Made by a program: the position numbers and the translations under genes
The notes under the pieces: model-generated
What the model saw: only the letters and a program-made list of their open reading frames with translations
What the model was told of the DNA's origin: nothing
Database searches by the model: none
Shown here: positions 1 to 32,338 of the stretch, in pieces
How the letters are laid out: the number at the start of each line of letters is the position of its first letter
Numbering within the stretch: position 1 is the first letter of the stretch
Assembly: GCA_902805565.1 (NCBI GenBank)
Contig: CADCTP010000352.1
Span: forward strand, 1 to 32,947
Direction of reading: 5' to 3'
DNA length: 32,947 nucleotides
From: an uncultured Mycobacteriales bacterium
GTDB taxonomy: Bacteria > Actinomycetota > Actinomycetes > Mycobacteriales > CADCTP01

Positions 1-156
1 GTCCGTGCCCGCCGCCCGGGCGATCGCGTGCGCCAGGCCGGCGGCGAGCAGCACCAGCCCCGCGGCCGCGCCGAGCGCGGCGGCCGCCGCGCGGGCCAGC
101 GCGCCGGGCACTCCCGGTACGCCGGCCAGCGGGGCGAGCGGACCCCGGTCCGTCAT
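1..156 (-). CDS. cydD: Probable CydD, N-terminal fragment (thiol/heme ABC exporter subunit), cut by window edge
   Basis: Only the first 52 codons are present; the rest lies beyond the left edge. The ATG at 156 overlaps the cydB stop codon in an ATGA, so the gene is translationally coupled to cydB. The visible peptide has a short polar start, then an Ala/Leu-rich hydrophobic stretch at about residues 19-45 that would be a first transmembrane helix. In actinomycetes, and in many other bacteria, cydAB is followed by cydDC (or a fused cydDC). These genes encode the ABC exporter needed to assemble the bd oxidase in the membrane. The call rests mainly on this gene order and on the membrane-type N-terminus. 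No ABC motif is within the window, so another membrane protein cannot be excluded. Confidence 0.6.
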   Translation of the reverse strand, partial: MTDRGPLAPLAGVPGVPGALARAAAAALGAAAGLVLLAAGLAHAIARAAGTD

Positions 157-1172
157 GCGGTCACCTGCGCCGGGTCCTCGCCGTGCGCGGGCCCGGCGGT
201 GAGCCGCCGGCGGAACACCCAGTACGTCCAGACCTGGTACGCCAGCACCACCGGCAGGCCGACAGCGGCCACCCAGGTCATGACGGTGAGCGTGTAGTCG
301 CTGACCGCGGCCTCGGCGATCGTGACGTCGAAGGCCGGGTCGATCGTCGAGGGGACGACCACCGGGAACGCCGCCCCGAACAGCGTGGCCGCGGAGGCCA
401 GCAGCACCGTGGCCCAGCCGGCGAAGGCCTGCCCCTCGCGGTCCAGGCGCACCCGGGTCCAGGTGACGACGACCGCCAGCGCGGCCACCCCCCACAGCGC
501 CCCGGTGACCGCGGTGCCGGAGCGCAGCTGCACCAGCCCCGCCCAGGCCAGCAGCGGCAGCGCGGCCAGCGGCGACCAGAGCAGCGCGAACGCCCGCGCC
601 CGCAGCCGTACCGGGCCGTCGGTCTTCAGGGCCAGGAACAGCGCCCCGTGGACGAGCGAGTAGCCGAGCACGGCGGCCGCGCCCAGGGCCGCCGACCAGC
701 TCAGGCCGGCGAACGCCCCGCCGACCCGCGTCCCGTCCCCGTCGATCGGCAGGCCGAGGGTGGTGGCGCCCAGCGCCGCGCCGACCCCGGCCGCGGCCAC
801 CACCGAGCCGCCGGTGATGACCCGGGTCCAGGCGGCGTCCCAGCGCGGGTCGTGCGAGCTGTGCCGCCACTCGAAGGCCACCGCGCGGACGATCAGGCCG
901 AGCAGCACCAGCACGAAGGGCAGGTACAGCGCCGGCAGCCAGGTGGCGTACCAGCCGGGGAAGGCGGCGAAGACCGCGCCGGCGGCGGTGATCAGCCAGA
1001 CCTCGTTGCCGTCCCAGACCGGGCCGATGGTGCGGAGCATGAGGTGCCGGTCGGCCCGGCGCCGGCCGAGCACCGGCAGCAGCGCGGCCACGCCGAAGTC
1101 GAACCCCTCCAGCAGCAGGAAGCCGGTCCAGAGCACCGCGACGGCGACGAACCACAGGGTCTGCAGGTCCAT
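153..1172 (-). CDS. cydB: Cytochrome bd ubiquinol/menaquinol oxidase subunit II
   Basis: CydB is the second membrane subunit of the bd-type terminal oxidase, which oxidises quinol and reduces O2 to water without pumping protons. The 339-residue protein begins MDLQTLWFVAVAVLWTGFLL and continues with the family hallmarks GFDFGV (about residues 24-29) and GPVWDGNEVWLI (about 49-60). Many hydrophobic segments fit the usual eight or nine helices. I place the start at ATG 1172 because an AGGAG (1180-1184 on the complement) lies 7 nt upstream and the family N-terminus begins here; a longer in-frame extension to 1226 has no family match. The cydA stop codon overlaps this ribosome site, and the next gene overlaps by ATGA, so cydA-cydB-cydD is a tight operon. 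Expression is probably under the BlaI-type operators upstream of cydA. Confidence 0.95.
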   Translation of the reverse strand: MDLQTLWFVAVAVLWTGFLLLEGFDFGVAALLPVLGRRRADRHLMLRTIGPVWDGNEVWLITAAGAVFAAFPGWYATWLPALYLPFVLVLLGLIVRAVAFEWRHSSHDPRWDAAWTRVITGGSVVAAAGVGAALGATTLGLPIDGDGTRVGGAFAGLSWSAALGAAAVLGYSLVHGALFLALKTDGPVRLRARAFALLWSPLAALPLLAWAGLVQLRSGTAVTGALWGVAALAVVVTWTRVRLDREGQAFAGWATVLLASAATLFGAAFPVVVPSTIDPAFDVTIAEAAVSDYTLTVMTWVAAVGLPVVLAYQVWTYWVFRRRLTAGPAHGEDPAQVTA

Positions 1173-1182
1173 GTCTCGGCTC

Positions 1183-2736
1183 CTAGTACGCGAAGGACAG
1201 GACGTCGTCGTCGGCCCGGTCGTCACCGGGACGCGGGTCGTCGTCGTCCCGGTCGGCGGACCCGACCGCCGGCGGCGTCGGCGTGGTGTCGCCGGTGGTG
1301 ACGCCGCGGCGCACCAGCCGGACGAGGAGGAACAGCTCCACCACCGCGAGCGCGCCGTAGAGCAGGCCGAGGCTGATCAGCGAGGTCCACACCTCGGCGG
1401 CGGTGACGCCGGGGGAGACGGCCTGGGCGGTGAAGAAGTACACCTGCTCGCCGACCGGCACGTCCGGGTTCGGGTACACGACGAACGGCTGGCGGCCCAT
1501 CTCGGTGAAGATCCAGCCGGCCGCGTTGGCCGCGAACGGCGCCCCGACGGCGAGCAGCGAGCCGTACACGCCGATCCGCGACCTCGGGACCCGGCCGCGG
1601 CGGGTGGCCCACAGGGCGTACGCCGCCACCCCGGCGGAGACCGCGCCCATGCCGATCATGAGCCGGAAGCTCCAGTAGGTGACCGCCAGCACCGGCGTGT
1701 AGTCGATCGGCTGGCCGGCCCGGTCGCCGAAGGACGGGTCGTCGGGGTAGGTGGCGCCGTAGACCGCCGAGTACTCCGCCTGCAGCTCGTTGACCCCGGG
1801 CACCGCGGTGGAGAAGTCGCCGTGCGCGAGGAAGGACAGCAGCGCGGGGACGGTGTAGCTGTGCACGTCGTCGCACTCGTTGGAGCCGAGCTTGCCCCAG
1901 GCGAAGATCGAGAACGGCGCCGGGGCCGCGGTCTCGCAGAGCGCCTCGGCCGAGCTCATCTTGAGCGGCTGCTGGTGGTACATCAGCTTGCCCTGCCAGT
2001 CGCCGGTGAGCGCCACCAGCGCGAACGCGGCCAGCGAGACGAAGCCGCCGAGCCGGACCGAGCGGCGCCACACGGTGTGGTCGACGTCGGTGTCCGGCCG
2101 GCCGGCCAGGGCGCGGCGGCGCAGCTGGTAGAGGCCGATGCCGACGAGCAGGGCGCCGGCGACCATGAGCGCGGCGACGATCGCGTGGCTGAAGGCGGCC
2201 AGGGCCGTGTTGTTGGTCAGCACGGCCAGGAAGTCGACCTGCCGCGGGCGGCCGTCGTCGGCGAGCGTGACCCCGACCGGGTGCTGCATCCACGAGTTGG
2301 CCGCGATGATGAAGTACGCGCTGACGATCGAGCCGATCACCGCGGCCCACAGCGACGCCAGGTGCAGCTTCTTCGGGATGCGGCCCCAGCCGAAGATCCA
2401 CAGGCCGAGGAACGTGGACTCCAGGAAGAAGGCGAGCAGCGCCTCCATGGCCAGCAGCGAGCCGAAGACGTCGCCGACGAAGCGGGAGTACTCGCTCCAG
2501 GCCAGGCCGAACTGGAACTCCTGCACCAGGCCGGTGGCCACGCCGAGGACGAAGTTGATCAGGTAGACCCGGCCCCAGAAGCGGGTCATCCGCAGCCACT
2601 CCGGCTTGCCGGTGCGCACCCACATGGTGTGCATCACCGCGACCAGGACGCCCAGGCCGATGGTCAGCGGGACCATCAGGAAGTGGTAGACGGTGGTGAT
2701 GCCGAACTGCCACCGGGCGATGTCGAGCACGTCCAC
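1183..2736 (-). CDS. cydA: Cytochrome bd ubiquinol/menaquinol oxidase subunit I
   Basis: CydA carries the quinol site and hemes b558, b595 and d of the high-affinity bd oxidase. In the 517-residue protein, likely heme ligands are His18 (in TTVYHF), His184 (in AFSHAI) and Met360 (in FRLMIG). The quinol-loop motif QQPLKMSSAE at about 255-264 keeps the Lys and Glu five residues apart, as in the E. coli protein. GRQPF at about 414-418 follows, and the loop is the short type common in actinobacteria. The start is GTG 2736, preceded by GGAGGAG at 2743-2749 (complement). An upstream ATG/GTG at 2772 adds 12 non-family residues and would run into the operator region. It heads the cydAB(D) operon. Two palindromic sites at 2778-2817 lie just upstream and probably bind the neighbouring BlaI-type repressor. 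Confidence 0.96.
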   Translation of the reverse strand: MDVLDIARWQFGITTVYHFLMVPLTIGLGVLVAVMHTMWVRTGKPEWLRMTRFWGRVYLINFVLGVATGLVQEFQFGLAWSEYSRFVGDVFGSLLAMEALLAFFLESTFLGLWIFGWGRIPKKLHLASLWAAVIGSIVSAYFIIAANSWMQHPVGVTLADDGRPRQVDFLAVLTNNTALAAFSHAIVAALMVAGALLVGIGLYQLRRRALAGRPDTDVDHTVWRRSVRLGGFVSLAAFALVALTGDWQGKLMYHQQPLKMSSAEALCETAAPAPFSIFAWGKLGSNECDDVHSYTVPALLSFLAHGDFSTAVPGVNELQAEYSAVYGATYPDDPSFGDRAGQPIDYTPVLAVTYWSFRLMIGMGAVSAGVAAYALWATRRGRVPRSRIGVYGSLLAVGAPFAANAAGWIFTEMGRQPFVVYPNPDVPVGEQVYFFTAQAVSPGVTAAEVWTSLISLGLLYGALAVVELFLLVRLVRRGVTTGDTTPTPPAVGSADRDDDDPRPGDDRADDDVLSFAY

Positions 2737-2777
2737 GCGCTGCTCCTCCGGGTGTGCCGCCGAGGCCGACACCTCAT

Positions 2778-2794
2778 TTCTACGCCTCGTAGAA
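2778..2794. promoter_or_regulatory. Predicted BlaI-type operator, site 1 (cydA side)
   Basis: TTCTACGCCTCGTAGAA is a perfect inverted repeat with 7-bp arms (TTCTACG/CGTAGAA) around 3 bp. It sits 42 bp upstream of the cydA GTG. BlaI/MecI-family winged-helix repressors bind short palindromes of this TAC...GTA type, and a blaI-like gene is adjacent. Assignment to that protein is inferred from position and symmetry. Confidence 0.75.
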
Positions 2795-2800
2795 CGACTT

Positions 2801-2817
2801 TTCTACGTCTCGTAGAG
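2801..2817. promoter_or_regulatory. Predicted BlaI-type operator, site 2 (cydA side)
   Basis: TTCTACGTCTCGTAGAG matches site 1 with one mismatch in the right arm. Its centre is 23 bp from that of site 1, about two helical turns, so two dimers could bind on the same DNA face across the cydA promoter. Confidence 0.72.
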
Positions 2818-2865
2818 GATGGCGGTGTGACCTTGCGGACAACGGCGGCCCCGGCCCGGCGACCG

Positions 2866-2882
2866 TTCTACGCTGGGTAGAG
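2866..2882. promoter_or_regulatory. Predicted BlaI-type operator, site 3 (blaI side)
   Basis: TTCTACGCTGGGTAGAG keeps the left arm exactly and five of seven right-arm positions. It lies just upstream of the blaI-like ribosome site (GGGAGGAGG at 2892-2900), where a bound repressor would block its own transcription. It is weaker than sites 1 and 2 by symmetry. Confidence 0.65.
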
Positions 2883-2904
2883 ATTCCGGCCGGGAGGAGG
2901 TCCC

Positions 2905-3270
2905 GTGGCATCGCTGGGCGACCTGGAGCGCACCGTCATGGACGTGTTGTGGGCGGCCGACGGCCCGGTCGCGGCGACCGGGCTGCGGGATGCGCTGGCC
3001 GGCCGCGACCTCGCGCTGACCACCGTGCACACCGTGCTGTCCCGGCTGGAGGCCAAGGGCTTCGTCGAGCACGACGACGCCCGGCCGCGCCGGTTCCGCC
3101 CGCGGGCCAGCCGGGCCGAGCACGCCGCCGAGCTGATGCACGAGGTCCTCGGGCGGGCCGGCGACCGGCAGGCGGTGCTGGCCCGGTTCGTCGGCGGCGT
3201 CGACCCGGAGGAGGCCCGGCTGCTGCGGCAGCTGCTCGCCGAGAGCGGCCCGGACACCCCCACCCGCTGA
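2905..3270 (+). CDS. BlaI/MecI/CopY-family winged-helix repressor
   Basis: This 121-residue protein has the full length and layout of BlaI-type repressors. An N-terminal winged helix (about residues 3-72) includes LERTVMDVLW, the recognition region LALTTVHTVLSRLEAKG and a basic wing ARPRRFRPRAS. A C-terminal dimerisation helix region begins near AEHAAELMHEVLG. Family members bind palindromic operators as dimers and are inactivated when a partner membrane metallopeptidase triggers their cleavage or release. The GTG start at 2905 follows GGGAGGAGG with a 4-nt gap. The M56 peptidase gene starts 1 bp after the stop, which is the expected partner arrangement. Three matching palindromes in the divergent cydA intergenic region suggest it represses both itself and cydABD. 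It is not a beta-lactamase locus here: no bla gene is present. Confidence 0.9.
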   Translation: MASLGDLERTVMDVLWAADGPVAATGLRDALAGRDLALTTVHTVLSRLEAKGFVEHDDARPRRFRPRASRAEHAAELMHEVLGRAGDRQAVLARFVGGVDPEEARLLRQLLAESGPDTPTR

Positions 3271-3271
3271 C

Positions 3272-4201
3272 ATGCTGCCCACCACCGCCGCGGCGCTCGC
3301 CGTCCTCGCGGCGCTGCTCGCCTGGCCGGTGCCGGCGCTGCTCGGGCGCGCCCGCTGGCCGCGGCGCGACCCGCTGGTGGCGCTGATCTGCTGGCAGGCC
3401 GTCGGGCTGGCCGGCGGTCTGTCGATCATCGGCGCGCTGCTGGTGCACGGCCTGGCGCCGTGGGGGCACTCGCTGTCCGGGGCCGGCCGGGCGCTGCTGA
3501 CCGGGGATCCCGCCCGCGACCCGGTCCGCGGCGACCACTGGGTCACCCTGACGCTGGCCGCCGTCCTCGCCGCCGAGCTGCTCGGCGTCCTCGCGCTGTC
3601 CTGGGTCCGCACCGCCCGTACCCGCCGCCGGCACCGGGAGCTGCTCGAGCTGGTCGTGCAGCCCTCCGCCGCGGCCCCGGACGCCCGGCTGCTGGAGCAC
3701 CCCGCGCCGGTGGCGTTCTGCATCCCGGGCGCGCGCCCGCTGCTGGTGCTGTCCTCGGGCATGGTGGCCGAGCTCGACGACCGGCAGCTGGCCGCCGTCG
3801 TGGCGCACGAGCGGGCGCACCTGGCCGAGCACCACCACCTCTACCTGCTGCCGTTCCTGGCGTGGGAGGCGGCGCTGCCGGTGCTGCCGGCGGCCGCGCG
3901 GGCACACACCGCGGTGCGCGAGCTGGTGGAGATGCGTGCGGACGACCGCGCCCTGGCCTCGCTCGGCGGGCCCGACCCGCGGCGCACGCTGGCCGAGGCC
4001 ATCGTGGTGGCCGCCGGGGGAGGCGGCGGGGTGGCCGACGGCGCGCTGGCGGTCGGCGGCAGCGCGCTCGGCGCCCGGGTACGCCGGCTGCTCGACCCGC
4101 CCGCGCCGCTCCCCGCCGCCGCCCGCCTCGCCGCCCTGCTCGCCCCGGGACTGCTCCTGCTCGTCCCGACCGCCCTGCTCCTCGCCCCGTCCCTGCTCTG
4201 A
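3272..4201 (+). CDS. M56-family membrane metallopeptidase (BlaR1/MecR1-like, no penicillin sensor domain)
   Basis: The 309-residue protein has hydrophobic segments at about residues 4-25, 38-60, 92-112 and 285-308. Between them is a cytoplasmic zinc-protease region with HERAH (His179, Glu180, His183) and a downstream Glu220 in ELVEMRADD as a likely third ligand. This is the M56 (BlaR1/MecR1) signature. BlaR1 carries an extracellular beta-lactam-binding domain after the last helix; here the protein ends at that helix, so the signal must be sensed otherwise. It begins 1 bp after the blaI-like gene and almost certainly acts on that repressor. The signal is unknown. The neighbouring bd oxidase suggests respiratory or envelope stress, which is inference. 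A short GC-rich inverted repeat after the stop (4202-4222) may help end transcription against the converging gene. Confidence 0.88.
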   Translation: MLPTTAAALAVLAALLAWPVPALLGRARWPRRDPLVALICWQAVGLAGGLSIIGALLVHGLAPWGHSLSGAGRALLTGDPARDPVRGDHWVTLTLAAVLAAELLGVLALSWVRTARTRRRHRELLELVVQPSAAAPDARLLEHPAPVAFCIPGARPLLVLSSGMVAELDDRQLAAVVAHERAHLAEHHHLYLLPFLAWEAALPVLPAAARAHTAVRELVEMRADDRALASLGGPDPRRTLAEAIVVAAGGGGGVADGALAVGGSALGARVRRLLDPPAPLPAAARLAALLAPGLLLLVPTALLLAPSLL

Positions 4202-4264: not shown

Positions 4265-5317
4265 TCAGGCCGGAGCGGCGGCGTCGTGCAGGTTCACCGG
4301 CATGAGCAGCGACCAGTCGGTGCCGCCGGGCGGGCGGATCGCCAGCGGGGCGATCGGGCCGTCCAGCCCGAGCACCAGCTGGCCGGACCCGGGCAGCGCG
4401 TCGAGCAGGAAGTCCCGGTTCACCCCGACCCGTACGCCGTCGCCCGCGCCGCCGACCGTGAGCCCGCCGTCCGGGCCGAGCACCAGCACCACGGTCCGGT
4501 ACGCCACCCCGTCCTCCCGCACCTTCGGCACCGACGGGCCGGCCTGCACCGCCGCCCGGAACGCCGGCACGTCCAGCGTCACCTCGTGCCGGGCCGGCGC
4601 CGGGGCGAACCGCCGCCAGTCCGGGTAGTCGCCGGCCGGCGCCGCCGTCCCCCGCAGCACCTGCCCGCCCGCGGCGATCTCCACCGCATCCCCGGCCACG
4701 GTCACGGTCGCCGTCCCGCCGCTGCGGCGCAGCAGCTCCCGGGCGGCGTCGACCAGCCCGACCGGGAGCAGCACCCGGCCCCCGGTCCCGTCCGCGGGCA
4801 CCGCCAGGACGGCGGCGGCGGTCGCCAGGCGGTAGCGGTCGGTGGCGACCGCGTGCAGCGCGGTCCCGTCCGGCTCCAGCAGCACGCCGTGCAGCGCCGG
4901 GTGGCCGGGGTCGCGGCCCACCGCGTACCGCACCGCGTCGATCGCGGCGCCGAGCGCGCGGGCGTCCAGGGTCAGTTCCATCGGGTTCTCCGTACGGTCG
5001 AGGAGCGAGCGGACCGCGGAGAGCTCCCGGCGGGCGTCGGCGAGACCGCCCTCCAGCCGGGCCAGGTGCGCGTCGAGCACCGGACCGGGATCGCACCCGG
5101 CCAGCAGCGCCCGGACGGCGTCCAGCGGCATCCCGACCCGGCGCAGCCGGGCGACCAGCCGGGCCGACCGGACCTGGTCGGGGCGGTAGCGGCGGTAGCC
5201 GGTGCGCGCGTCCACGGCGGCCGGGACCAGCACGCCGGCCCCGTCGTAGAACCGCAGCGCGCTCACCGGCAGGCCGCTGGCCCGGGCCAGCTCGCCGATC
5301 CCCAGGAGTCCCTCCAC
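4265..5317 (-). CDS. MerR-family regulator fused to DnaN-like sliding-clamp domains
   Basis: Residues 4-72 form a MerR DNA-binding domain (GIGELARASGLPVSALRFYD, then GYRRYRPDQV), followed by a helical linker to about 110. Residues 113-345 resemble domains 2 and 3 of the DNA polymerase III beta clamp. Visible signatures are VATDRYRLA (157-165), GDYPDWRRF (229-237), NRDFLLDAL (300-308) and a C-terminal LLMPVNL (337-343), which matches the end of true clamps. Domain 1 is absent, so a normal two-subunit ring is unlikely. I chose GTG 5317 (350 aa). An upstream in-frame TTG at 5356 is better explained as the -35 box, and a -10-like hexamer ends 8 nt before this GTG. The role is probably ligand- or partner-responsive transcription control; what the clamp part binds is unknown. 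It is the last gene of the murA-lectin group. Confidence 0.85.
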   Translation of the reverse strand: MEGLLGIGELARASGLPVSALRFYDGAGVLVPAAVDARTGYRRYRPDQVRSARLVARLRRVGMPLDAVRALLAGCDPGPVLDAHLARLEGGLADARRELSAVRSLLDRTENPMELTLDARALGAAIDAVRYAVGRDPGHPALHGVLLEPDGTALHAVATDRYRLATAAAVLAVPADGTGGRVLLPVGLVDAARELLRRSGGTATVTVAGDAVEIAAGGQVLRGTAAPAGDYPDWRRFAPAPARHEVTLDVPAFRAAVQAGPSVPKVREDGVAYRTVVLVLGPDGGLTVGGAGDGVRVGVNRDFLLDALPGSGQLVLGLDGPIAPLAIRPPGGTDWSLLMPVNLHDAAAPA

Positions 5318-6137: not shown

Positions 6138-7460
6138 TCAGTGCAGCTTGGCGCCCACGGCGAGGAGCTTGGCCCGGAAGTTCTCGTAGCCGCGGTCGAG
6201 CAGCGAGGCCCCGCTGATCGTCGAGGTGCCCTGGGCGGACAGCGCCGCCAGCACGTACGAGAACCCGGCCCGCAGGTCCGGCACGTGCAGGTCGGTGCCC
6301 TGCAGCTTGGCCGGGCCGACGATGACCGCGGAGTGCCGGTGGTTGCGCGAGCCGAACCGGCACGGCGTGGAGCCGAGGCACTCGGTGAAGACCTGGATCT
6401 GCGCGCCGAGGGCCCGCAGCGCCTCGGTGTAGCCGAGGCGGTCCTCGTACACCGTCTCGTGCAGGACGGTGACCCCGTCGGCCTGGGTCAGCGCGGTGAT
6501 CAGCGGCGGCTGCCAGTCGGTCATGAAGCCGGGGTGCACGTCGGTCTCGATCACCAGCGGCCGCGGCATCGGCCGCTCCCGCCAGAACGTGACCTCGCCG
6601 CCGTCGGTGGAGAACTCGAAGTCGCCGCCGGCCCGCCGGTAGACGTTGAGGTAGGTGCTCAGGTCGCCCTGCCGGACGCCGGAGACGGTGATCCGGCCGT
6701 CGGTGGCCAGCGCGAGCCCGGCCCAGGAGGCGGCCTCCAGCCGGTCCGGCACCGCGGTGTAGTCGACGCCGCGCAGCGTGTGCACGCCGGTGACCTGGAT
6801 CGACCGGTTGGGCTTGACCGTGATGAGCGCGCCCATGCGCTGCAGCATCCCGATCAGGTCCATGATCTCCGGCTCGACCGCGGCGTTGTTGAGCACCGAG
6901 TCGCCGGCCGCGACGACCGCGCCGAGCAGGAACTGCTCGGTCGCGCCCACGCTCGGGAACGGCAGGTCGATGATCGCGCCGCGCAGCCCGGCCGGGGCGG
7001 TGAGCACGTAGCCGGTGTCGGTCCGCTCGTCCTTCGCGCCGAACGCCCGCAGCACGTCCAGGTGGAACCCGACCGGCCGCTCGCCGATCGAGCAGCCGCC
7101 CGGCCGCCAGATCTCCGCCTTGCCGGTGCGGTGCAGCAGCGGGGCGCAGGTCAGCACCGGGATGCGGCTGCGCTCGTGGAAGACGGCCAGCTCGCCCTCG
7201 CCGGCCAGGTGCACGTCGCGGGCGGTGATGGAGACCACGCCGCCGGCCGGGTCGGAGGTGGTGGTCGACCCCAGCGCCTCGACCAGGTCCGCGACGATGC
7301 CGATGTCGCGGACGAAGGAGACGTTGCGGATGGTGACGGGCTGCTCGGTGAGGAGGGCCGCGACCATCAGCTTCGGGACCGCGTTCTTCGAGCCGCGCAC
7401 CGGGACGGTCCCGTAGAGGGGGGCACCACCGGTGATGTGCAGCGTGTCGTCGACGGTCAT
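6138..7460 (-). CDS. murA: UDP-N-acetylglucosamine 1-carboxyvinyltransferase
   Basis: MurA transfers enolpyruvate from phosphoenolpyruvate to UDP-GlcNAc, the first committed step of peptidoglycan synthesis in the cytoplasm. The 440-residue protein has the substrate-binding VRGSKNAVPK (Lys25, Asn26) and the catalytic loop RPGGCSIGERPV with Cys123, the residue targeted by fosfomycin. The C-terminal half matches actinobacterial MurA: PDRLEAASW, ETDVHPGFMTDWQPPL, HETVYEDRLG and PDLRAGFSY. I start at ATG 7460 (MTVDDTLHITGG), which aligns with family N-termini. An in-frame TTG at 7505 adds 15 residues rich in Pro and Arg and is unlikely. It is followed 27 bp later by the lectin gene. I see no second copy in the window, so whether this is the main MurA cannot be told. 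Confidence 0.95.
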   Translation of the reverse strand: MTVDDTLHITGGAPLYGTVPVRGSKNAVPKLMVAALLTEQPVTIRNVSFVRDIGIVADLVEALGSTTTSDPAGGVVSITARDVHLAGEGELAVFHERSRIPVLTCAPLLHRTGKAEIWRPGGCSIGERPVGFHLDVLRAFGAKDERTDTGYVLTAPAGLRGAIIDLPFPSVGATEQFLLGAVVAAGDSVLNNAAVEPEIMDLIGMLQRMGALITVKPNRSIQVTGVHTLRGVDYTAVPDRLEAASWAGLALATDGRITVSGVRQGDLSTYLNVYRRAGGDFEFSTDGGEVTFWRERPMPRPLVIETDVHPGFMTDWQPPLITALTQADGVTVLHETVYEDRLGYTEALRALGAQIQVFTECLGSTPCRFGSRNHRHSAVIVGPAKLQGTDLHVPDLRAGFSYVLAALSAQGTSTISGASLLDRGYENFRAKLLAVGAKLH

Positions 7461-7698
7461 CTGGGTTGGGGTCTCCGTTCGGTCTCTTCCGGGCCGGGGT
7501 GGCAACCTCGTCCCCCGGAGTGGATGTTCCCGGTCGGAACTGATGACGCGGTACGGCCCTGATTCGTTGCGTCCGTTCGGGCGATGAGGCTACCCGGGCC
7601 CCGGGGTTTCACCGCTGAGGCGGGGCCCCACTACCCTCCTGCCGGGCCTTCGGCGGGGGAGGGCCGGACCGGAGGACGCGGCACACCTGAGGGGACCC

Positions 7699-31585: not shown

Positions 31586-32338
31586 GTGCGGGAGAGCTGG
31601 TCGATCGCCGAGGTGGCGCGGATGTCCGGGGTGACGTCGCGGACGCTGCGGCACTACGACGCGATCGGGTTGCTGGCCCCGGCCCGGGTCGCCGCCGACG
31701 GTCGGCGGCACTACGGCCGGAAGGAGCTGCTGCGGTTGCAGCGGATCCTGCTGCTGCGCGAGCTGGGCGTGGGCCTGCCGGCGATCGGCGAGGCGCTGGC
31801 CCGGGTCGGCAGCGAGGCCGCGGTGCTGCGCAGGCACCGCGACCGGCTGGTGGGCGAGCGCGATCGGCTCGCCCGCCTGGTCCGCACGGTCGAGGACACC
31901 ATCGAGAGCATCGAAGGAGGTGCGGACATGGCCGCGGAGACCCTGTTCGAGGGGTTCGAGCACGCTCCGTACGAGGCCGAGGCGCGCGAGCGCTGGGGTG
32001 ACGAGGCCGTCGACGAGTCCTGGCGGAACCTGCGGGCGCTGCGGGGCGAGGACGCCGACCTGGCCCGCAACGGGTTCCAGCGGGTGCACGCCGCGCTCGC
32101 GCCGCTGCTGGCCGAGGGCGTGGCGGTCGACGACCCGCGGGTGCAGGAGCTGATCGCGCTGCACTGCCGGGTGCTGCGGCTGTTCTGGGAGCCGAGCGCC
32201 GAGGCGTACCGGACCCTGGGGCAGGTGTACGTCGAGGACGAGCGGTTCCGCCGCTCCATCGGCGGCGGGAACGACGCGCTCGTCGAGTACCTGCGGGACG
32301 GCATGGCGGTCTACGCCGACACGCAGCTGGGCCGGTAA
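31586..32338 (+). CDS. TipA-type MerR regulator (MerR domain plus TipAS ligand-binding domain)
   Basis: The 250-residue protein has a MerR DNA-binding domain (residues 4-72: WSIAEVARMSGVTSRTLRHY and RRHYGRKELLRLQRI), a coiled-coil linker (about 75-110), and a TipAS domain (about 115-250). The last contains GFEHAPYEAEARERWG and LGQVYVEDERFRR, close to TipA relatives that bind thiopeptide antibiotics. As I recall the Streptomyces TipA, its drug-linked Cys lies in a FYPCS-like stretch. Here the matching stretch reads FWEPS, without Cys; the only Cys is residue 194. The ligand may thus be different or bound non-covalently. An internal start at 31928 could produce the TipAS domain alone. Confidence 0.9.
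   Translation: MRESWSIAEVARMSGVTSRTLRHYDAIGLLAPARVAADGRRHYGRKELLRLQRILLLRELGVGLPAIGEALARVGSEAAVLRRHRDRLVGERDRLARLVRTVEDTIESIEGGADMAAETLFEGFEHAPYEAEARERWGDEAVDESWRNLRALRGEDADLARNGFQRVHAALAPLLAEGVAVDDPRVQELIALHCRVLRLFWEPSAEAYRTLGQVYVEDERFRRSIGGGNDALVEYLRDGMAVYADTQLGR
31914..31930 (+). promoter_or_regulatory. Strong internal ribosome site and ATG for a TipAS-only product
   Basis: AAGGAGG (31914-31920) lies 7 nt before ATG 31928, which is in frame with the TipA-like gene at residue 115. Translation from here gives a 136-residue ligand-binding domain without the DNA-binding part. Streptomyces tipA is known to make a short TipAS in this way. Confidence 0.68.

Follow-up and report, generated by a model that had tools for sequence, protein, structure and literature searches.

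A BlaI-type repressor and a sensor-less M56 protease probably form a respiration switch at the cytochrome bd genes of Actinomycetes

BlaI–BlaR systems are taught as switches for beta-lactam resistance. What, then, would a BlaI-type repressor and an M56-type membrane protease control when their genes stand divergent to those of cytochrome bd oxidase? The question is raised by a stretch of 32,947 nucleotides from an uncultured Mycobacteriales bacterium (contig CADCTP010000352.1 of assembly GCA_902805565.1; this whole stretch is called the window below), for which a sequence-only reading had proposed that the pair is wired to cytochrome bd rather than to a beta-lactamase. Our comparisons support that wiring by a conserved divergent gene arrangement with its operators, operators at cydA genes unlinked to blaI, operators at cydDC, and loss of the operator where blaI is missing. 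We consider it quite likely that BlaI and M56 form a local, self-regulating respiration switch, in which BlaI would repress cydABD(C) together with blaI–M56 itself and proteolysis by M56 would relieve the repression.

In the window, cydA (cytochrome bd subunit I; positions 1183..2733, minus strand; PF01654, 3.1e-149) starts with GTG at 2733 after GGAGGA. The divergent blaI (2905..3270, plus strand; GTG start at 2905) encodes a winged-helix repressor of 121 amino acids that matches PF03965 (Penicillinase_R; 1.9e-19) with 70.5 bits against a curated cut-off of 22.6 and thus belongs to that family. In a profile search, its closest solved structure was 2g9w (E 4.5e-33), which we take to be Mycobacterium tuberculosis BlaI (Rv1846c). 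The M56/M48-type membrane metalloprotease (309 amino acids; 3272..4201, plus strand), identified by Pfam, a predicted model, and an alignment, begins 1 bp after the blaI stop codon. We searched the window for the palindrome TTCTACGnnnCGTAGAA, allowing up to 3 mismatches, and found 4 matches, 3 of them between cydA and blaI, against 0.13 expected from shuffles; none of 100 shuffles of the window reached 4. The candidate operators are O1 (2778..2794; TTCTACGCCTCGTAGAA, 0 mismatches), which is proximal to cydA and starts 45 bp before its start; O2 (2801..2817; TTCTACGTCTCGTAGAG, 1 mismatch), which starts 23 bp from O1; and O3 (2866..2882; TTCTACGCTGGGTAGAG, 2 mismatches), which begins 65 bp beyond the start of O2 and stops 22 bp short of the blaI start codon. 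They lie as the sequence-only reading had placed them, two on the cydA side and one on the blaI side. The counterpart of O3, TTCTACGCTGGGTAGAA, is identical in four Geodermatophilus loci (L150, L151, L152, and L162; L, G, C, and f are our handles for loci, genomes, contigs, and families). A sigma-70-type promoter scan of the cydA–blaI intergenic region gave no match.

To define the linked form of the module, we scanned 84,980 named genomes once, using an alignment of BlaI, and took the 80 nearest BlaI loci; neither cydA nor the palindrome served as a query, and the set spans Geodermatophilaceae, Micrococcaceae, and Microbacteriaceae. Divergent cydA adjoins blaI in 77 of the 80 loci; every one of the 80 has the palindrome in the 400 bp ahead of blaI, and in every one blaI is adjacent to an M56 gene. 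Elsewhere in these loci, over 772 kb, only 3 palindrome matches occur, all in Microbacterium, and each directly precedes a cydDC-type gene, which in these species flanks the module on its opposite side; both loci that were classified by profile carry a fused cydDC, with both halves far above the cut-offs. CydDC is the exporter required for cytochrome bd assembly. Three operator sites are present in 38 of the 77 cydA–blaI intergenic regions, and the commonest start-to-start spacing of neighboring sites is 21–25 bp (191 sites). Across these 191 sites, each arm is 96–100% conserved at its outer six bases, and positions 7 and 11 only 57% and 53%, respectively; the core first described as TTCTACG-nnn-CGTAGAA is therefore corrected to TTCTAC-N5-GTAGAA. 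The three loci without adjacent cydA (L193, L217, and L222) have kept one palindrome upstream of blaI, which points to BlaI autoregulation.

A second sample, 61 genomes of the same order in which we mapped blaI and cydA and read the regions upstream of them, addressed the unlinked form. Among 40 other cydA loci, unlinked to blaI, 19 show the palindrome 33–85 bp ahead of cydA, and 31 matches fell in the 6.0 kb within 150 bp of cydA starts versus 0 in 47.6 kb farther upstream. Unlinked cydA promoters with an operator were found in families f8, f12, f15, and f3 and in genomes G005 and G050. The f8 genomes are mycobacterial, their BlaI is nearly identical to PDB chain 2g9w, and operator-like palindromes occur upstream of both cydA and blaI. 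The half-site variant follows the family, with GTCTAC at both genes in f12, TACGAC...GTAGTA in f8, TACTAC in f15, and TTCTAC in f4 (G050) and f5 (G005); a family permutation test, which ignores phylogeny, gave 108/5040. The palindrome was present at cydA in 26 of 36 genomes with blaI versus 0 of 6 without it (Fisher p 0.0015, phylogeny ignored). It also precedes blaI in f9 and f12, although cydA lies elsewhere in those genomes. One f4 genome (L086, G050:C1:2868000-2869800) carries a Geodermatophilus-like cydA, 84% identical to that of the window, with two operators and with blaI 1.7 Mb away; this looks like a transfer of cyd together with its operators.

The palindrome is also specific at the scale of the genome. 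A genome scan, as suggested by the sequence-only reading, found the exact 6-3-6 core at O1 and O2 and nowhere else in the genome of the window. Besides O3, the only sites with 1 mismatch were on contigs C222, C232, and C435, and we rejected all three as targets, since they lie inside open reading frames (by translation, a qcrB-like cytochrome b, a subtilisin-like protease, and thrS). With 2 mismatches, the genome gave 117 matches versus 160 for a reversed control, which is background, and only sites with 0–1 mismatch were therefore used. A degenerate form of the pattern was set aside over the 61 genomes because it was swamped by background. We counted every exact half-site pair across 12 genomes; a reversed pattern, run as a control, had 0 matches there. 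Exact sites are restricted to the cydA–blaI intergenic region in the genome of the window and in five Geodermatophilaceae genomes, and no beta-lactamase gene in these stands under an exact operator.

Other genes carry the operator in families f5 and f10. In three genomes of these families it precedes, in exact form, small DUF3817 (PF12823) membrane genes (L147 ~3065, L148 ~3055, and L149 ~3005) with methylmalonyl-CoA mutase genes close by, and we predict from these sites that the DUF3817 genes of f5 and f10 are a second BlaI target. In two f5 genomes, single and double sites precede a small membrane protein of 138–148 amino acids without a family match (L144 ~3002 and L145 ~2981).

The position of the pair relative to the cyd genes varies among lineages. 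The blaI–M56 genes are divergent to a long-type cydA in the window, Geodermatophilaceae, and Micrococcales; divergent to a distantly related short-type cydA in f10 and one f5 genome; upstream of and codirectional with a short cydA in f15; and a few kilobases downstream of cydABDC in f4. A tree of BlaI plus M56 requires at least 9 changes of arrangement, three for the short-cydA form alone, and the pair therefore came to adjoin cyd genes repeatedly, which speaks for function rather than inertia. As far as sampled, this regulator group is confined to the class Actinomycetes; outside the class but within the phylum, we saw weaker BlaI relatives, none of them adjoining cydA.

We next considered whether the protease could act on BlaI. 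The window M56 has the motifs H179ExxH183 and E220xxxD224, the gluzincin motifs reported for BlaR1 (PMC9834060), and H179, E180, H183, E220, and D224 are invariant in 35 aligned M56 proteins. Its predicted model (predicted local distance difference test score 91) has four long membrane helices, at residues 2–17, 34–64, 87–128, and 282–308, and a compact protease part. In a fold search of the PDB with Foldseek, the top five matches were Staphylococcus aureus BlaR1 (probability 0.99–1.00), followed by Ste24. Pfam found no beta-lactam (penicillin-binding) sensor domain, and the model ends at the last membrane helix of the 309-residue protein; the absence of such a domain, which the sequence-only reading had asserted, was thus borne out. 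A cysteine, C150 (AYCLPG/AFCIPG), is invariant in the 35 proteins and present in most other family members, is missing in f4, and lies on a strand shortly before the HExxH helix, where it might serve as a zinc or redox switch. The M56 protein of several Microbacterium loci and of Gryllotalpicola stops near residue 250, without the last helix.

Taken as a mechanism, BlaI dimers would bind TTCTAC-N5-GTAGAA at O1, O2, and O3. BlaI at O1 and O2, which lie two helical turns apart and may be bound cooperatively, would repress cydABD(C), and BlaI at O3 would repress the blaI–M56 operon. M56, modeled as a membrane zinc protease of the BlaR1 type lacking the penicillin-binding sensor, would on activation cleave BlaI and derepress cydABDC; M56 and BlaI would rise along with cydABDC, so that the system could reset. 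The predicted operator and the cyd target of the module are strongly supported by the comparisons. We infer that BlaI is the binding protein and acts as a repressor and, from homology, the BlaR1 fold, and the catalytic motifs, that M56 cleaves BlaI. S. aureus BlaR1 cleaves BlaI directly (PMC9834060). Because M56 has no outside domain, the signal should come from the membrane or cytoplasm; we propose that conserved transmembrane segments, not an outside domain, read the condition of the respiratory chain or membrane as this signal. A narrower form of this proposal, which we hold only tentatively and think more apt to fail than to stand, is that the sensor-less M56 senses the respiratory chain within the membrane (quinone pool, membrane energy state, or redox) and itself cleaves BlaI in a single step; the sensing parts might be two invariant segments in its first two helices, WPxP and WQ...GG..S, together with C150 near the zinc motif.

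The pair might instead be a general switch for envelope or beta-lactam stress, which has been proposed for M. tuberculosis, with cell-wall damage as its signal and cytochrome bd as one output among others. This is a live rival because, in M. tuberculosis, beta-lactam treatment induces both blaR–blaI and cydAB, and BlaI there controls blaC plus atp and cyd genes (PMC5473688). BlaI orthologues in genomes without cydA and the operators at DUF3817 genes and at the small membrane protein fit it as well. However, M56 lacks the sensor domain, and the exact sites in the genome of the window and in the five Geodermatophilaceae genomes are found only at cydA/blaI and at no beta-lactamase, so that we regard this explanation as possible but doubtful. 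It is also conceivable, and in our judgment unlikely, that BlaI represses cydA but is released by a small ligand, a redox change, or another protease (e.g., Clp), with M56 acting elsewhere. We found no BlaI cleavage data for this group, M56 scores better as M48, and the blaI-linked proteins of ∼250 amino acids lack the last helix; against this stand the unbroken adjacency of blaI and M56 in the 80 loci, the 1-bp gap in the window, the catalytic motifs intact in 35 of 35 aligned proteins, and the BlaR1 fold.

Least probable by far is that the palindromes are operators of another regulator, or RNA or terminator hairpins, and that BlaI adjoins them incidentally. O1 is followed by TTTT and scores as terminator-like, and Rex directly regulates aerobic-metabolism genes in Streptomyces (PMC5355995). 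But the arm letters are nearly fixed in the 191 sites, blaI has the palindrome in front of it even in L193, L217, L222, f9, and f12, with cydA elsewhere, and genomes that lack blaI also lack the palindrome at cydA. Rex resembles BlaI here as a repressor system tied to aerobic metabolism genes. It is a soluble NADH sensor whose operator and fold differ from those of BlaI, and no membrane protease is involved.

Several observations weigh against the respiration switch that we favor. Shared descent explains part of the linkage, because the 80 loci are the nearest BlaI relatives, and the Fisher and permutation tests ignore phylogeny. Ten genomes with a BlaI match and cydA have no recognizable operator at cydA (f14, most of f4, G018, G024, and G002), and several BlaI orthologues occur in genomes without long-type cydA (f9 and f7), so that cyd is not their only target. 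For the protease, Foldseek E-values to BlaR1 are only 0.008–0.03, and the Pfam M56 model was missed (20.4 bits versus a cut-off of 31) while the M48 model was passed (38.4 versus 20.3), making the protein an M48/M56 intermediate by sequence.

The nearest known system is BlaI (Rv1846c)/BlaR (Rv1845c) of M. tuberculosis, which supplies the closest BlaI structure and a partner protease that is likewise without a sensor domain (PMC5473688). PMC5473688 states, citing Sala 2009, that this BlaI binds the cyd and atp (ATP synthase) promoters, which parallels the cyd operator of the window. Repression of an atp-linked gene by BlaI has support from electrophoretic mobility shift assays (PMC12565901). 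Our literature search on BlaI and cytochrome bd (cydAB, Rv1623c) found the mycobacterial link only in PMC5473688, where the cyd claim is second-hand; an mSphere paper on the BlaI regulon lists only atpH and sigC and does not mention cyd. The systems differ in that the sampled mycobacterial genomes have blaI apart from cydA, whereas the window pair is divergent at cyd with a triple operator, and in that the M. tuberculosis regulon includes blaC, atp, and sigC, whereas the genome of the window has no other exact site. The staphylococcal BlaI–BlaR1 and MecI–MecR1 systems share the BlaI fold, a divergent regulator/target promoter region with dyad operators, and a membrane gluzincin with HExxH and ExxxD, BlaR1 being the best fold match of the window M56. 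In contrast, the window M56 has no extracellular penicillin-binding sensor domain, its target is a terminal oxidase rather than beta-lactamase or PBP2a, and the staphylococcal operator sequence differs from that of the window. A sensor-less BlaI/BlaR pair touching cyd genes is thus already known from the mycobacterial literature; to the extent of our searches, what is new is the dedicated module in which cyd and blaI–M56 diverge around a conserved triple operator, its occurrence in several families, the operators at cydDC, and the lack of the operator in genomes that have no blaI.

Beyond cydA, the operon continues with cydB (cytochrome bd subunit II; 153..1172, minus strand; PF02322, 2.4e-88; TIGR00203 above cut-off) and the start of cydD, probably a fused cydDC, which was identified by translation and is cut by the window edge (1..156, minus strand). 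The cydD ATG overlaps the cydB stop (ATGA), and the fragment is 72–91% identical to the open reading frame after cydB in Geodermatophilaceae loci, which runs on into a CydDC-like protein. Downstream of M56, the next gene (4265-5317, minus strand; PF13411 and PF02767) is an odd fusion of a MerR-type helix-turn-helix domain with a central domain like the DNA polymerase III beta clamp. The claim that no other regulator gene is nearby is thus not fully accurate for the window, but 0 of 120 related loci have a MerR–clamp gene beside the module, and we rejected it as the true cyd regulator on this ground. Farther away, the window encodes a MerR/TipAS-type antibiotic-recognition regulator (31586-32338, plus strand), an adenosine deaminase 75% identical to one of an f4 genome, and an EPSP-synthase-like enzyme (6138-7505) whose relatives in the sampled genomes are only 35–37% identical. 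The same assembly contains a second BlaI-type gene with its own M56-like neighbor (L085, G000:C87, 4306-4635); this BlaI is 38% identical to that of the window, and the TTCTAC palindrome was not found upstream. The cydA, blaI, and M56 of the window are ∼90% identical to those of Geodermatophilus and group inside that genus, and QcrB on another contig of the assembly is 82% identical to that of a genus mate (G001) and only 67% to those of Geodermatophilaceae; this cydA and blaI are missing from G001. Mis-binning of the contig is possible, as is a recent transfer of the cyd–blaI–M56 module. Our conclusions are untouched by this doubt because they rest on many isolate genomes.

The tie between cyd and the operator recurs across many actinobacteria, and the pair is therefore probably a general respiration switch. 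The comparisons suggest that in much of Actinomycetes, cytochrome bd may be a core output of BlaI–BlaR. Cytochrome bd lets mycobacteria survive inhibitors of bc1 and ATP synthase. If our reading is true, it would help explain why M. tuberculosis BlaI couples respiration to the beta-lactam response and why its BlaR lacks a drug sensor. Harmless soil actinobacteria (Arthrobacter, Blastococcus, and Geodermatophilus) offer one operon and three defined operators for finding the signal. Should M56 indeed sense within the membrane, a single membrane protease would link respiratory state to transcription of the terminal oxidase across actinobacteria.

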